From: Candidatus Hodarchaeota archaeon
Lineage (GTDB): Archaea; Asgardarchaeota; Heimdallarchaeia; Hodarchaeales; Hodarchaeaceae
Reading direction: 5' to 3'
Length of the DNA stretch: 35,742 nt
Assembly: GCA_016840035.1 (NCBI GenBank)
Contig: JAEOTC010000240.1
Location: forward strand, 1-35,742
Shown here: positions 26,224 through 32,524 of the stretch, piece after piece
How positions within the stretch are numbered: position 1 is the first letter of the stretch
How the letters are laid out: each line of letters opens with the position of its first letter
The notes under the pieces: model-generated
The model's database searches: none
The model's input: only the letters and a program-made list of their open reading frames with translations
Told to the model about the DNA's origin: nothing
Made by a program: the position numbers and the translations under genes

Positions 26224-26853
26224 TTAACTTAATGCGTTTTTGACCAATTTTCCTTTTTCAGTAAGGAGAAAGAGCTTATTCTTTGTACTTCCTCTTGAAG
26301 TAACCAATCCTTCAGCAGTTAACTGTTTAAGGTAGCGTGATAAGAGACCACTGCTTCCTTTCTTATCTTCCTGCAGCTCTTTGTATTTGGTGGTTATTGC
26401 TTCTAGCTTTACTCCTTCCTCTGGAATTAAGAGTAATACTCGCTCCTCAGTTTTCGACAGTTTTTGATAAAGAACCATCTCCATTGGTTCTTTACGTTCC
26501 TTGTCAATAATATAAAATGATTTTATCTTTTCTTTCAGAATGGTCGCCGTACTATAGAACAATAATTGCCAACTGACCAACCCAGATGTAACATTTAGCA
26601 TAAGTTCATATTCTTTCGAGTGCAAATCATTAATTAAATTTTTTAAAAAGTCTACAATGTAGTATGAATCTCTTGGTTTTTCAATGATTTCTATTCGAAC
26701 TTCTATACCTTTAACCAGCTCTGTTATCTCATTTGCTTGCTCTAGATAATCTTCTGTAGTAATTAGAACTAATAAAGAGGTTGGATAACGAAATAATCCT
26801 AACTGGATCCATTCAGGGTTCCGACCCACTGTAGCAATCTGACAGATCTTCAT
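26224..26853 (-). CDS. CARF-domain winged-helix transcription regulator (Csa3/HFX_2341-like)
   Basis: The protein has 209 aa from ATG 26853. Residues 1-125 form a Rossmann-like CARF domain: ICQIATVGRNPEWIQLGL, SLLVLITTEDY, and the ligand motif LMLNVTSGLVSWQLLFYSTA with NVTSG at 87-91. Residues 132-209 form a winged helix (SKTEERVLLLIPEEGVKLEA, LLSRYLKQLTAEGLV, KNKLFLLTEKGKLVKNAL). Csa3-type proteins sense cyclic oligoadenylates and regulate CRISPR or stress genes; HFX_2341-type proteins carry the same layout outside CRISPR loci. No CRISPR array or cas gene is in the window. The gene is divergent from a transglutaminase-like gene across a 146-nt region with three copies of one palindrome, which suggests autoregulation and control of the block that follows. 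Confidence 0.8.
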   Translation of the reverse strand: MKICQIATVGRNPEWIQLGLFRYPTSLLVLITTEDYLEQANEITELVKGIEVRIEIIEKPRDSYYIVDFLKNLINDLHSKEYELMLNVTSGLVSWQLLFYSTATILKEKIKSFYIIDKERKEPMEMVLYQKLSKTEERVLLLIPEEGVKLEAITTKYKELQEDKKGSSGLLSRYLKQLTAEGLVTSRGSTKNKLFLLTEKGKLVKNALS

Positions 26854-26882
26854 GTGACTTCTGTTTCTCCTCTGTTTTCTGC

Positions 26883-26963
26883 ACTTAAAAAGTTAACGAT
26901 ATATGAAATCAAAAAATAATATACTTTTAAAGTAATGAAAAACTTTATAAGTAAATAGTTTAC
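26883..26963. promoter_or_regulatory. Three palindromic ACTT-N3-AAGT sites in the CARF regulator's divergent promoter
   Basis: The sites are at 26883-26893 (N3 = AAA), 26923-26933 (TTA) and 26942-26952 (TAT), with 40 and 19 bp between their starts, about four and two helical turns. The third overlaps a TATA-like TTTATAAG (26945-26952) that would serve the gene starting at 27000. A further palindrome, GTAAA-TAG-TTTAC, follows at 26951-26963. The most natural reader is the CARF winged-helix protein encoded on the left. Confidence 0.6.
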
Positions 26964-26999
26964 ATATTTAGTTAAGCAAGTGGGGGATGAGGAAACTGA

Positions 27000-27659
27000 T
27001 TGAAAAGTAGTAAAAAAATAATCGGAACAGTTATTGGAATTGGAATACTAATAATCATCATTGGGGGATGCATGAAACCATCGGAGTGGCCAGCTCAGGT
27101 AACTCACAAATTCGACCTCCCATCAACAATAGATCCTGATCATGTGCAAATTTCAGAATTGAATGCTGAGATTGAAAAATCATGGGCCGGAGTTCGCAAA
27201 TATCACAAAGGAGATCAAATGATGGAAGATGAAATTGATTTTATCGGAAGAGAAATTAAAGAACTAATTGAATATTGCCCAGATTTGGAAAATCCTAACT
27301 ATCAAGCTTTTGAACACTTTCCAACCGTATCACAGGTTCTGGAAACCAAGAAAGATGATTGTGATGGTAGAGCAATTGTTGCTTGCTCATTATTAATTCA
27401 TCGTGGATATGACAGCTACGTGATAATGAATGAACGTCATGCTTGGGTAATTACCTATTTAAATGATGGAAGCTTCGTTGAAATTTTAAAAAATCCTATT
27501 CCTGACGATGATCACAGCTGGTTATTACAATGGAATAATAACACTGTAAAGATAAATTTCACCCATCCAGTACCTTTAGTAATTGGTGTGTTGGTCTTAT
27601 TGGGAATCACTTCGACACGAGTGTTTTTACTGAAGAAAAACAAGCCATCAAATGCTTGA
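27000..27659 (+). CDS. Membrane-anchored transglutaminase-like protein
   Basis: The protein has 219 aa from TTG 27000, with GAGG about 7 nt upstream. The N-terminus is basic, followed by a hydrophobic stretch and a lipobox-like IIGGC at about 20-24, so it may be a lipoprotein or a signal-anchored protein. The core has the transglutaminase/cysteine-protease pattern: KDDCDGRAIVACSLLIHRGY with the candidate Cys, then NERHAWVITYLNDGSF with the candidate His. The third catalytic residue is not clear, as the usual Asp position holds other residues. A C-terminal TM (VPLVIGVLVLLGITSTRVFLL) ends with a basic tail, so the core probably lies outside the cell between two membrane contacts. It is followed after 118 nt by the Mrp/Roc/HEPN gene, and both may be under the operator cluster at 26883-26963. 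Confidence 0.7.
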   Translation: MKSSKKIIGTVIGIGILIIIIGGCMKPSEWPAQVTHKFDLPSTIDPDHVQISELNAEIEKSWAGVRKYHKGDQMMEDEIDFIGREIKELIEYCPDLENPNYQAFEHFPTVSQVLETKKDDCDGRAIVACSLLIHRGYDSYVIMNERHAWVITYLNDGSFVEILKNPIPDDDHSWLLQWNNNTVKINFTHPVPLVIGVLVLLGITSTRVFLLKKNKPSNA

Positions 27660-27728: not shown

Positions 27729-27777
27729 AAGCAAACCCTATTCCTAAGCACAAAAAATAATGAAGGGGAATCGCAGA

Positions 27778-30468
27778 ATGAAATCATTAGCAATATTGAG
27801 TCATAAAGGTGGAGTTGGGAAAACAAGTATTGCCGTGAATATTGCTGTTTATCTAGCATCAAAAGGGAAACGAGTCTGTCTTATTGATAATGACTTCCAT
27901 GGGCCGTCTATTTATACGTTCTTCAAACCAAATGTCACCTGGATAAATGATTATTTACTTGCTGAAGGGAAACTAGAGGATTGTTTGCAAGAATTCTCCA
28001 GTCAGCTGAATTTAGCTGGAAAGTTGTATATTGGATTTGCAGATCCATCTCATACCTCTATTCAAGAAGTATTGCAGATGGATAAAGATACGTCAATTGG
28101 GATGCTAAGAAAATATGTTAAACTAAAAAATGAACTTCTAAAACCTCCTTATGAGATTGAGTATCTGATAGTAGATTGTTCACCTGGAGCAGTATTTAGT
28201 ACTATTAACGTAATGGTCGCTACAGATTCCAGTCTCTTTATAATTAAATTAAGTAATGCGGATATCCTAGGGACATCACAGATGATATCAGCTTTGCATG
28301 AGGAAATGAAAAGCAGAACTTTAGTCTTGGCTAATTTTATCCCAGAAGATTTTGTGCAAAACACGGAAAAAACAGACGAGAGTCAGAACTTTATCGAGAA
28401 GATTTTCACCAAAGATATCGGGGATAAAGTAGTCGACTTTCTTGGTTGGATCCCTCAGGATCAAACATTGCTGAATTATGAATTCGAACAGGCATTAAAA
28501 ACAATAAGAGGACAGGAATCATCCAGAGTAATATTTTCTGTTGATCAACCTGAACATATATTCTCACAGACGATAATCCAATTATTACCAGTCTTATTCA
28601 ATGAACCAGAGGCACTTCCCTCCGTTTCTCAGGATTTACCAGAATTATTGGTGAAACAACGCAGAGCTTTTGTTGTAGGTGAACCCCAGGTGGGAAAAAC
28701 TGCTTTGTTTCATGCTCTTACCTCAGGCAGAGTGCCAGAAAAACTTCAAAGTACTGCAGGGATTGATCGCTATACAATCTGGGAAGCACAAGAAGGAAAT
28801 GTGATTACAGGTATCAATTGGTGGGATTTTGCGGGACAATATGCATATCGTGATACCCATAAGTTATTTTTGACAGAGGATACACTCTATATTCTAGTCC
28901 TAAACCTACGAGAGTCAATTGAGAAAAATCATGCACTATATTGGTTACAGAGTATTCGTGAAAAGGCTCCCAAAGCCCCGATTCTACCCATATTAACTCA
29001 TTATGATGAGGTGGGCGATAATGTTCTGGGATTAGCTGCTTCAGATGATTGGCAAGAATTAATGGAATATATGACCACATATAAGACTTTGGAACCAATT
29101 AAAGTTTCTAATACAGAAGGAAAGAATATTACCAAGGTAGAACAATTAATTAAGCGGTCGATGAATGAATATCAAGGAGTACAGATTCCGAAATTATATT
29201 CCAAACTTAAAGAATACATCCAATCCTGTGAAGAGCGTATATTCTTAACATTAGAGCAAGTTAGGAAGGATGTAAAGCAACTACCCATCGAGAATGACAT
29301 CCAACTAGAACTATCGGATAGTAAACTCAACGAAATCCTCCTACAACTTTCCCATCAAGGCCATTTTCATATTGTAGAATTACCTTCTTCTCCATCAATT
29401 GTAATTTTTGATGTTGATCGTGTGACTAAAGCATTCTCTTTAATAATAGATCAGGCAAAACCGTTGAAGGGATTTGTAGAGGAAGTTGATGTTCTTGACA
29501 TCTGTGCAGATTACTTTTCTCGCGGAGAAAGACGTGAAGCGGCCCATATTATTGCGGATTTAATGGTTAAAACCGATATGGCGTTACCGATACCTACCAG
29601 TAGTTCTACAGGGAGGATCATATCTTCTTGGTTAATTCCCCATGCATCAGAGATTCTTACAGAGAAAACAGCTCGCAAAAATTATCCTTCCATATTTGTC
29701 CGTCCTGAAGAAGAGATAGGGAAAAGTTTAGCCTCATTCAACTTCGTACTGAATACCTTTGATGAAATTATTGAAGCCCGTGTTTTAGGACACCTTTTCA
29801 ATTATCTTCCGTATTCTGAAAAGAACCAAGTTTGGCGAGAACGATCAGAAGACAGTGAAAAAACATCCTTGCATGCATTTCTGTACGAGGATGATCGACC
29901 AATTGTACATTTCCACTCAGATTCATTACGACGAGGGAAAATACGACTGAAAGTAGTCATTACTGATGATATCTTAGAGAAGGGACTATTAGCATCCATC
30001 ATCTATGCGTTAAGTAAATATAAGATCTCATTCGAGATAGAAGAGACTATTTTCATCAAAACGCAGAAATTCAAGAATAAAGATGAAAATCTGCTAGACC
30101 GAATCGCACAACTAACGAATATTCCAGAAGAGTATATCCAGACAATCGAACAAGCTATCAAAATATCCTCTTCAGCTCCCTCAAGTGCCATCGTTACAGC
30201 GGTAACCGCGTTAGAAGGACTATTTGTGACCTATTATACAAAGAAGATTGCTGAACCTGAAGCAACAACGAAGTTTTGGGAAATTCTGAAAGCCCTTTAT
30301 GATGCAAATTATGTCCCACGAACAGTCAAAATCTGGGCGGATACTGTACGATTACATCGCAATAATTGTGCTCATAATATTAACCCAGTGAATACAAATG
30401 ACGTTAATATTGTGTTAGAAGAAATTTTATACGTTTTAGAGTGGTATAACACAGTTTCTACAAGTTAA
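27778..30468 (+). CDS. Mrp/MinD-like ATPase - Roc GTPase - COR - HEPN-like fusion protein
   Basis: The protein has 896 aa from ATG 27778, preceded by AAGGGG at a normal distance; ATG 27760 in frame is less likely. Residues 1-260 are a deviant-Walker-A ATPase: HKGGVGKTS (Lys10), LIDNDFHGPS (Asp37 and Asp39, an Mrp/NBP35-type motif), IVDCSPGA (Walker B). Residues about 295-460 are a Roc-type GTPase: GEPQVGKT (301-308), WDFAGQ (349-354), THYD (407-410) and VSNTEG (G5, near 444). About 460-700 fits COR: LLQLSHQGHFHIVELP with FDVDRVTKAF, then IIADLMVKTDMALPIP with SWLIPHASE. The C-terminus, about 780-896, is a helical HEPN-like domain with RNNCAH (Arg861, His866), the Rx4H ribonuclease pattern. 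All four nucleotide-binding motifs look intact. It overlaps the convergent stop by 4 nt. Function is inferred: a switch-controlled RNase or scaffold. Confidence 0.85.
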   Translation: MKSLAILSHKGGVGKTSIAVNIAVYLASKGKRVCLIDNDFHGPSIYTFFKPNVTWINDYLLAEGKLEDCLQEFSSQLNLAGKLYIGFADPSHTSIQEVLQMDKDTSIGMLRKYVKLKNELLKPPYEIEYLIVDCSPGAVFSTINVMVATDSSLFIIKLSNADILGTSQMISALHEEMKSRTLVLANFIPEDFVQNTEKTDESQNFIEKIFTKDIGDKVVDFLGWIPQDQTLLNYEFEQALKTIRGQESSRVIFSVDQPEHIFSQTIIQLLPVLFNEPEALPSVSQDLPELLVKQRRAFVVGEPQVGKTALFHALTSGRVPEKLQSTAGIDRYTIWEAQEGNVITGINWWDFAGQYAYRDTHKLFLTEDTLYILVLNLRESIEKNHALYWLQSIREKAPKAPILPILTHYDEVGDNVLGLAASDDWQELMEYMTTYKTLEPIKVSNTEGKNITKVEQLIKRSMNEYQGVQIPKLYSKLKEYIQSCEERIFLTLEQVRKDVKQLPIENDIQLELSDSKLNEILLQLSHQGHFHIVELPSSPSIVIFDVDRVTKAFSLIIDQAKPLKGFVEEVDVLDICADYFSRGERREAAHIIADLMVKTDMALPIPTSSSTGRIISSWLIPHASEILTEKTARKNYPSIFVRPEEEIGKSLASFNFVLNTFDEIIEARVLGHLFNYLPYSEKNQVWRERSEDSEKTSLHAFLYEDDRPIVHFHSDSLRRGKIRLKVVITDDILEKGLLASIIYALSKYKISFEIEETIFIKTQKFKNKDENLLDRIAQLTNIPEEYIQTIEQAIKISSSAPSSAIVTAVTALEGLFVTYYTKKIAEPEATTKFWEILKALYDANYVPRTVKIWADTVRLHRNNCAHNINPVNTNDVNIVLEEILYVLEWYNTVSTS

Positions 30469-31079
30469 GGATGTCCACTGTAGTATTTCTGGAATGCAGA
30501 CACCATTTCATTAAAAGGGAGATCAGAATAAACACCACGATCACTAAGATAATCTATGAATGGTCTACCTTTGGTATCTTTTGATTGAAACGTAGCATCA
30601 GTTGAACCATCAAAAGTACATACAGGAAAATCGTGTTTTTGACATAATTCGGTTTCAAAAGAGGGAGTTAGCTTGTACCAGTGATTATTTAGAGATACTT
30701 CGGCATACCCATGGAAATAGAAGATATTAGTACCCATTAATTTAACTAAATGATCGGGGCTCCTATGGTTGATGATATCCGCGAAATGTAATCTTGAAGG
30801 GAATCCACCTGCACGGTAGAGGGCTACAAGTAATATTGATTTAGGTATGCAGAATCCCTTCCCTCGCTGTAAAGTGACACTCGCTTTAAAATCATCAGGG
30901 CTTGAATACAGAGACATGTCAATTTTATATTTAATTTGATCACGTACAAAATTAAAGATAGAAATACTTAGATCGTTCACATTAACAGTTTCTGTTTTAA
31001 GATCAGTCACCTTTTGTAGAATAGCAGATGAATCACTATCAATGAAGGACGTTGGGGTCAGGTATTCACTGTTTGCCAT
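30465..31079 (-). CDS. Soluble transglutaminase-like protein
   Basis: The protein has 204 aa from ATG 31079; a longer start at 31202 would add an unlikely hydrophobic extension that overlaps the opposite gene. There is no signal peptide. The core is QRGKGFCIPKSILLVALYRA with Cys77, followed by GGFPSRLHFADI, FHGYAEVSL with His123, and WYKLTPSFE. This is the common prokaryotic transglutaminase-like arrangement in which TPS/TPT stands where Asp is found in the eukaryotic enzymes. Activity could be a peptide-bond or isopeptide reaction; the substrate is unknown. Two proteins of this fold flank the Mrp/Roc/HEPN gene, the other being membrane-anchored at 27000. Its 3' end overlaps that of the large gene by 4 nt. 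Confidence 0.75.
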   Translation of the reverse strand: MANSEYLTPTSFIDSDSSAILQKVTDLKTETVNVNDLSISIFNFVRDQIKYKIDMSLYSSPDDFKASVTLQRGKGFCIPKSILLVALYRAGGFPSRLHFADIINHRSPDHLVKLMGTNIFYFHGYAEVSLNNHWYKLTPSFETELCQKHDFPVCTFDGSTDATFQSKDTKGRPFIDYLSDRGVYSDLPFNEMVSAFQKYYSGHP

Positions 31080-31149
31080 TATACAAAAGAATTTGAAGTT
31101 AGAAATTAAATAGTTTACACTCTTGATCAAATTATGGGAAGTATCAAGG

Positions 31150-31527
31150 ATGAATGCAGACCAAAGTTTAGAAGAACAAAATAAGATAAAACAGGCAATC
31201 ATGAATTATTATCACGAGGGTCATGTGAAAGAAGATCCTAAGCTATATGAACAGATTTTACATGAGAAATGGAAGTTTTTTCTACATGGTGAAGATGGAC
31301 TGCTCCGAGTAGTAGACAAAAAGGAATATTATTCATGGTATAATCCTGATGAACCCGATCTGTCTTTAAAATGGAAAACAAAATTTAAGTACATAGATGT
31401 GACAGATTCGATAGGTTCAGCTAAAATCGTGATTGAAAATCAGAATATTCGTTATACCGATTACTTCAATCTCATGAAAATTGAAGGGATCTGGTGGATT
31501 GTTCACAAAATATCTATTGCTAGTTGA
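31150..31527 (+). CDS. NTF2-like protein (lumazine-binding-like)
   Basis: The protein has 125 aa from ATG 31150; a TTG at 31123 would add nine residues. It has an alpha+beta cone fold pattern: KIKQAIMNYYHEGHVKEDPKLYEQIL, given here as AIMNYYHEGHV and EQILHEKW, then SIGSAKIVIENQNIRYTDYF and LMKIEGIWWIVHKISI. This matches the SnoaL/NTF2-like 'putative lumazine-binding' group of small proteins, of which few have a known activity. Some bind a small ligand in the cone. It is divergent from the soluble transglutaminase-like gene, with 70 nt between the starts. No other partner is evident. Confidence 0.7.
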   Translation: MNADQSLEEQNKIKQAIMNYYHEGHVKEDPKLYEQILHEKWKFFLHGEDGLLRVVDKKEYYSWYNPDEPDLSLKWKTKFKYIDVTDSIGSAKIVIENQNIRYTDYFNLMKIEGIWWIVHKISIAS

Positions 31528-31819
31528 AAAACCAGATTTCTAGAATTTCAAATTTTAAAATGGCTATTCTATAAGCCCTAAAAAGAAAATGGAGATAAAA
31601 TAGAATCTAGGAGGTTGAGGGGACAGACAAAACGCACGCACTCTAACCACTCTTAACGTTCCACAAAATAAGAGTAATAATGCCTATCCCCATCATATAG
31701 GGCTAACACTTCCTCTTGGGAATTGTCCCTTTTAAGGTTGATTACCTTGGTAATATTTTTTACTTATAAAGTTAACGGTTAAAAAAATAAGTAAAACCTA
31801 TTAATAAATTGAAATCTGA
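31528..31819. other. Intergenic region (292 nt) with several inverted repeats, no gene
   Basis: No coding frame is supported here. Inverted repeats are ACTCTTA/TAAGAGT at 31649-31675, the short CCTAT/ATAGG at 31683-31701, and a perfect 10-bp pair TTTTACTTAT/ATAAGTAAAA at 31758-31767 and 31787-31796. The last contains ACTT-ATA-AAGT (31762-31772), the same palindrome type as the three sites at 26883-26952, and is followed by GTTAACG as in the first of them. It may be an operator, a terminator for the minus-strand remnant genes, or both. Confidence 0.45.
31758..31796. repeat. 10-bp inverted repeat containing a CARF-promoter-like palindrome
   Basis: The arms TTTTACTTAT and ATAAGTAAAA match perfectly with a 19-nt spacer. 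The left arm and the bases after it form ACTTATAAAGT, then TAACG, one mismatch from the 16 bases at 26883-26898. Confidence 0.5.
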
Positions 31820-32011
31820 TTAATTCCAATAGCAATAAGCGAAGGAAAATCCGCCATATCGACTGTTAGGAGGAAAAAAGTTCCGTAGATGAGTGGTAAA
31901 AGCATAAGTATTCATATATTGTGCAAGAGGAACCACAGGTAGCTCGTTATGTAATGCTGCATTCAGAGATCTACAACCGTTCATAAACTGGGGATCGTCA
32001 ATTTGTGTGCT
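31820..32011 (-). pseudogene. C-terminal remnant of a family 5 substrate-binding protein
   Basis: An open frame without a start ends at TAA 31820-31822. It encodes LHNELPVVPLAQYMNTYAF and then FFPPNSRYGGFSFAYCYW, the pattern of the last residues of peptide-type binding proteins. It directly follows the decayed DppB fragment on the same strand, so a deletion seems to have joined the two. No intact upstream part is present. Confidence 0.5.
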
Positions 32012-32524
32012 TTACAAGTTGATTACTTAGTTCCAATGATATTCGTTGTGATGACTCAAACCAGTGTAAGTTCAAAGAAAAGATGTTTTGAAGAATGTAG
32101 CCTAGCCAGAATGTAGGCATTGAAATACCTATGTAAGAGAATAGGGTTATGGCATAATCTATACAAGTTTGATGATAGTATGCAGAAATTATACCAAAAG
32201 GAATACCCATAAGTACCCTAGAATCAGTGCAATGGTAACTAGCTCCAATGTGGCTGGTAAAGTAAGACTGATTTGATCAATAACCGAACTTTTAAATCGT
32301 GTTGAGTATCCAAAGTCTTGTTCAAAGATTACTTTTTGAAGGTACTCTAAATATTGCGTAACAAGAGTTCCTATATCTACTGATGATTCGTTAGTGAAAC
32401 CACTAAAAATTAGAAATACAAGAAAACTTACTCCTAATAGTACTGGAATTGCCCTTAAGATTCGGAAAAAACAAAATTTTAAAAAATTCTCGACTTCTGA
32501 GGGCATTTCTAATGTATCAGTCAA
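31998..32524 (-). pseudogene. Frameshifted and truncated DppB-type permease
   Basis: The first frame (from ATG 32524) encodes FFRILRAIPVLLGVSFLVFL, then DFGYSTRFKSSVIDQISL and LPATLELVTIALILG. It goes out of frame near 32212-32218. The adjacent frame continues with LMGIPFGIISAYYH and SMPTFWLGYILQ. Joined, these read as the N-terminal half of DppB with one frameshift. The family GDP motif after TM1 is missing, and the EAA loop and last TM segments are absent. It differs clearly from the three intact permeases at 6.4-9.8 kb, so it comes from another transporter. Confidence 0.8.

Follow-up and report, generated by a model that had tools for sequence, protein, structure and literature searches.

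Two palindromes of the form ACTT-N3-AAGT lie at the TATA-box positions of a divergent gene pair in a genome of the Hodarchaeales, one gene encoding a CARF-wHTH regulator and the other a transglutaminase-like lipoprotein. On balance, these two palindromes (sites 1 and 3) are probably operators that cover the TATA boxes and through which a local regulator would repress both genes; the CARF-wHTH protein itself is the likeliest candidate for this regulator. The window is the whole stretch of DNA that was analysed, 35,742 nucleotides of a Candidatus Hodarchaeota archaeon contig. Its features in and around the 146-nt intergenic region (26854-26999) are as follows.

26224-26853, minus strand: CARF-wHTH regulator P0001, 209 aa (predicted), the probable binder
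26883-26893, minus strand: site 1, read on this strand as ACTTTTTAAGT, an operator-like palindrome where the CARF gene's TATA box is expected
26892-26900: conserved block GTTAACGAT adjoining site 1, the two together forming ACTTAWAAAGTTAACG
26923-26933: site 2, ACTTTTAAAGT, seen in this genome only and not in the sister species
26942-26952, plus strand: site 3, ACTTTATAAGT, an operator-like palindrome on the putative TATA box of the transglutaminase-like gene
26951-26963: GTAAATAGTTTAC, a 5+5 palindrome overlapping site 3 on the start-codon side
26980-26990, plus strand: GGGGGATGAGG, the probable ribosome-binding region of the transglutaminase-like gene, assigned by sequence and conserved in the alignment
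27000-27659, plus strand: lipoprotein P0002, 219 aa, with a transglutaminase/CEP76-peptidase-like core, the probable target

Conservation of the palindromes

A pattern search of the intergenic region gives three copies of ACTTNNNAAGT, starting at 26883, 26923 and 26942 with spacings of 40 and 19, as in the original prediction. The last palindrome, which had been taken to end at 26963, stops at 26952; position 26963 is the end of GTAAATAGTTTAC, the exact form of which is absent from the aligned sister species. The evidence for conservation comes from two sister species (G002 and G004), both close, and in an alignment of the intergenic regions each of them retains sites 1 and 3. The start of site 1 is 40 nt from the CARF ATG in this genome (G000), G002 and G004 alike, and the site reads ACTTTTTAAGT in G002 and ACCTTATAAGT in G004. 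Eight of the nine columns of the adjoining GTTAACGAT block are identical in the three species, and the complete 16-mer ACTTAWAAAGTTAACG is also found at the orthologous position in G002. Site 3 begins 58 nt ahead of the TTG start codon in this genome and 58-59 nt ahead of the partner gene's start across the three species; it has the same sequence in G004 and reads ACCTTTTAAGT in G002. Its putative TATA box, TTTATAAG, is preceded by a BRE-like GAAAAAC. When read in the orientation of the genes, both promoters in each of the three species, six in all, fit the consensus ACYTTWTAAGT.

Site 2 behaves differently. Its position is occupied by ACTTTTTTAAGC in G002 and ACTATTTACTGC in G004, with 6 of 11 columns identical, and it is best read as a chance occurrence or as a weak accessory or species-specific site. 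Conservation upstream of orthologues, on which the original prediction had made its case depend, is thus found for sites 1 and 3, while the three-site operator that it proposed is unsupported because neither sister species has kept site 2. G007, the carrier farthest removed from this genome (62% protein identity), retains the gene pair and a nearly identical recognition helix, but its TATA-like sequence at this position is free of a palindrome and no site exceeds chance (best site P 0.40 in a PWM scan of the intergenic region). This absence counts against the operator reading, as does the 11-bp length of the sites, which is short for the operator of a wHTH dimer.

Relationship to the TATA boxes

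In promoter counts, TTTATAA boxes gather at about -36 and -56 in this genome, the two distances expected for near-leaderless and leadered transcripts. Since sites 1 and 3 stand at distances near these clusters, they appear, by position and sequence, to coincide with the TATA boxes of the two genes, an overlap that the earlier reading of the sites had overlooked. The same positions would be found if sites 1 and 3 were plain, well-formed TATA boxes that owe their palindromic form to the near-symmetry of an AT-rich TATA element, with site 2 due to chance, and the palindrome-free TATA-like sequence of G007 is in keeping with this explanation. It is unlikely, although still credible, and is opposed by the AC/GT flanks, which are common to both promoters and are kept in three species. 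GT follows TWWAA in only 15 of 352 TATA-like boxes (4%), the flanks of 13 TTTATAA promoter boxes are varied, and the whole motif ACYTTWTAAGT is present in 2 of 398 sampled promoters, both at this locus, and absent from the other 396. The few tRNA promoters seen are also without it. The motif is not a general promoter element or the general TATA box of this genome.

The promoter statistics refer to a 765-kb sample in which start codons were picked mechanically. Fixed patterns were counted because EM-based motif discovery, aimed at a general TATA model, returned the ribosome-binding site first and then only a weak A-then-T pattern. In total, ACYTTWTAAGT occurs 8 times in G000 (4.3 Mb), 7 times in G002, 22 times in G004 and 6 times in G007. 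The copies away from the locus are intragenic or distant from ORF starts, except one in G002; this single site is the only one of the other sites examined in the four genomes to fall within 25-75 nt before an ORF, in a tally that covers all but one of the G004 sites. A further point against the operator reading is that, with so AT-rich a genome, divergent promoters share matches at 10 of 11 positions fairly often (6 of 79 pairs). A conserved palindrome over BRE/TATA, the mark of a core-promoter repressor, is found in three species and was unseen in G007.

The CARF-wHTH regulator and its ligand

The identification of the divergent protein as a CARF protein with a winged helix is borne out by a match of P0001 to PADLOC CARF3 (E 1.1e-13) and by its predicted fold (AF2 model, pLDDT 82). 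In Foldseek comparisons, the N-terminal half resembles Cam1, Sis0811, Csm6 and Can2, and the C-terminal half resembles F-93, RosR, Sso10a-2 and MarR-type proteins; Pfam gives weak wHTH matches. The model has an N-terminal CARF Rossmann-like domain and a C-terminal winged helix, whose predicted recognition helix, GLLSRYLKQL, hardly varies among orthologues. The divergent regulator/lipoprotein pair is found in 4 of 12 genus genomes (G000, G002, G004 and G007), with regulator identities to G000 of 82% in G002, 67% in G004 and 62% in G007, and only distant relatives are found in the rest of the class. Named relatives of the regulator come from Hodarchaeota, Ca. Hodarchaeum or Heimdallarchaeota MAGs, which places the window in the Hodarchaeales. 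Against a curated cut-off of 60.2, the Csa3 model TIGR01884 gives three of the orthologues only 17.6 to 26.8 bits and does not match the fourth.

The only link between the sites and this protein is the adjacency of its gene. The sites could instead be operators of a different regulator whose gene lies elsewhere, or they could be used by the CARF-wHTH protein for activation, the role reported for Csa3a and MM_0565; together these alternatives are improbable. A local regulator is favoured because the motif is nearly confined to the locus, and a site on the TATA box itself suits repression better than activation.

Control by cyclic oligoadenylates, which had been proposed for this regulator, is not supported by the sequence comparisons. 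A search for the Cas10 palm2 domain found none in 12 genus genomes and was positive in 5 control genomes, and a search for Cas1 found none in the four carrier genomes; since the genus genomes are drafts of 70-96% completeness, these absences are not proof. In these drafts the regulator also lacks the CRISPR-Cas linkage of Csa3. In Csa3, cA4 binding has been reported for the positions Phe10, Phe14 and Arg98, which belong to the motifs G-F-(N/D), with Phe10 and Phe14, and small-small-G-hydrophobic-Arg98 (PMC8844856). The equivalents in the regulator are VGRNPEW and TSGLV; across four species Phe10 appears to be replaced by R, Phe14 by W and Arg98 by V or A. With neither Cas10 nor Cas1 found in these searches and these three residues replaced, the case for cyclic-oligoadenylate control is weakened, and the CARF pocket probably takes a ligand other than the cyclic oligoadenylates of type III CRISPR.

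The transglutaminase-like lipoprotein

P0002 matches the Pfam families CEPT76_peptidase (8.5e-4) and Transglut_core (0.12), both under the curated cut-off. A GGC lipobox and the motifs DDCDG and HAW are invariant in four species, and the C-terminus carries a hydrophobic segment. A scan of the genome contigs with P0002 gave no matches. Further along the window, on the plus strand, a single 902-aa protein (27760-30468) combines ParA/MinD-like ATPase, Roc/Ras-type GTPase and DUF4145 regions. The stretch 30465-31527 holds another transglutaminase-core gene along with a small gene that is SnoaL-like by eye, and this duo stays together in G011, where no CARF gene accompanies it.

Frequency of the palindromes and the distal copy

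The original estimate of about one ACTT-N3-AAGT site per window agrees with the computed expectation of 0.9, against which 6 are present, three of them outside the intergenic region at 2960, 6886 and 31762. The full-genome count that had been called for gives 81 sites in the 4.30-Mb draft; the site is therefore rare. In the 765-kb sample of the same genome, 13 of 24 sites fall within coding sequence. Dinucleotide shuffles of the 146 nt contain 0.017 sites on average, and none of 20,000 reaches at least three, in line with the claim that the triplet is far above chance. A looser and fairer test, which allows any 4-nt arm and spacers of 0-8, reaches three in 74 of 5,000 shuffles (1.5%). Among 287 intergenic regions sampled, three same-arm N3 palindromes occur in 2, this one with ACTT arms and another with TTTT arms. 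The ACTTN3AAGT triplet is unlikely to have arisen by chance.

Exact copies of the 16-mer ACTTAWAAAGTTAACG, which combines site 1 with its conserved flank, are present in the draft genome only at 26883 and 31762. The surroundings of the second copy contain the following features.

31608-31693, minus strand: candidate structured ncRNA of about 86 nt, with the stem GGGGATAGGC/GTCTGTCCCC
31762-31777: ACTTATAAAGTTAACG, a distal copy of site 1 plus flank, preceding the candidate ncRNA (minus strand)

The distal copy is placed about 70 nt before this conserved structured element, which is probably non-coding. One pair of the stem is altered on both sides. Copies of the element are found only at G001:C47:18109-18195 and G011:C68:13666-13751, where they are divergent from an aldolase-like gene (by eye); no CARF gene was found in either genome, and neither copy of the element has the site upstream. 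A covariance search of G002, G004 and G007 found no copies, and an Rfam search gave no family above threshold. As a single case, the copy at 31762 would look like a recently gained target. An apparently decayed ABC-transporter permease gene in several frames (by eye) lies at 31800-32524 on the minus strand. That the cluster is a chance product of AT-rich DNA, selected from many patterns, accords with the 1.5% of looser shuffles and the unconserved site 2, but is largely refuted by the retention of sites 1 and 3 in the sister species and by the unique 16-mer copy at 31762, and is very improbable.

Comparison with known systems

MM_0565 of Methanosarcina mazei is an archaeal CARF-wHTH regulator that binds over BRE and TATA in its own promoter and has some targets outside CRISPR (PMC7465815). 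It differs in that no motif has been defined for it, its gene is beside a type I-B locus and it is described as an activator (PMC7465815), whereas the present locus has a defined palindrome and a divergent target gene, and Cas1 and Cas10 were not found. Csa3a of Saccharolobus solfataricus is also a CARF-wHTH protein tied to promoter palindromes, but its CAPPa motif, TCCCN8GGGA, is G+C-rich and 18 bp long, lies 12 bp upstream of BRE and serves CRISPR leaders and adaptation genes (PMC8699464). Csa3 moreover binds cA4 through residues absent from the present regulator. YtrASa of Sulfolobus acidocaldarius, a local repressor with a very small regulon, acts on its own operon and a membrane-protein gene through a semi-palindromic site at the core promoter; it belongs to another protein family (GntR), and its site is over the transcription start, downstream of TATA (PMC6746942).

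The genes of two distant CARF-wHTH relatives, at L005 876-3149 (G017) and L007 453-2742 (G019), each form a divergent pair with a gene for a viperin-like radical SAM protein (PADLOC pVip, E 1.6e-78 and 1.4e-77) and are adjoined by a second CARF protein. Palindromes upstream of these relatives (CTTTTATTATAAAAG in L005) are similar by eye and were rejected as within chance (0.24 and 0.90). Viperin, CARF and Asgard were not found linked together in the literature searched.

Proposed mechanism and implications

Since a palindromic TATA element facing two ways adjoins the gene for a DNA-binding protein of the dimer type, we infer a local autorepressor that would compete with TBP/TFB. At each palindrome, the paired winged helices of a dimeric regulator, for which the CARF-wHTH protein is the likeliest candidate, would grip the DNA and exclude TBP/TFB from the TATA box. 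This exclusion would repress the regulator's own gene and that of the membrane-anchored transglutaminase-like protein. The affinity may change when the CARF pocket takes up its ligand, probably one other than a type III CRISPR cyclic oligoadenylate. A more tentative proposal, doubtful as a whole, is that the Hodarchaeales possess a CARF regulator that has departed from CRISPR, senses a ligand other than a cyclic oligoadenylate and controls the lipoprotein at the cell surface, itself and, in this species, the ncRNA (31608-31693) through a palindrome that covers TATA.

The operators of CARF-wHTH proteins have scarcely been defined so far, and none was found for Asgard archaea in the literature searched. 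The short palindrome and the paired promoters offer a direct handle on binding and sensing by a CRISPR-free CARF protein, and the palindrome pair is also a handle on repression at an Asgard TATA promoter.
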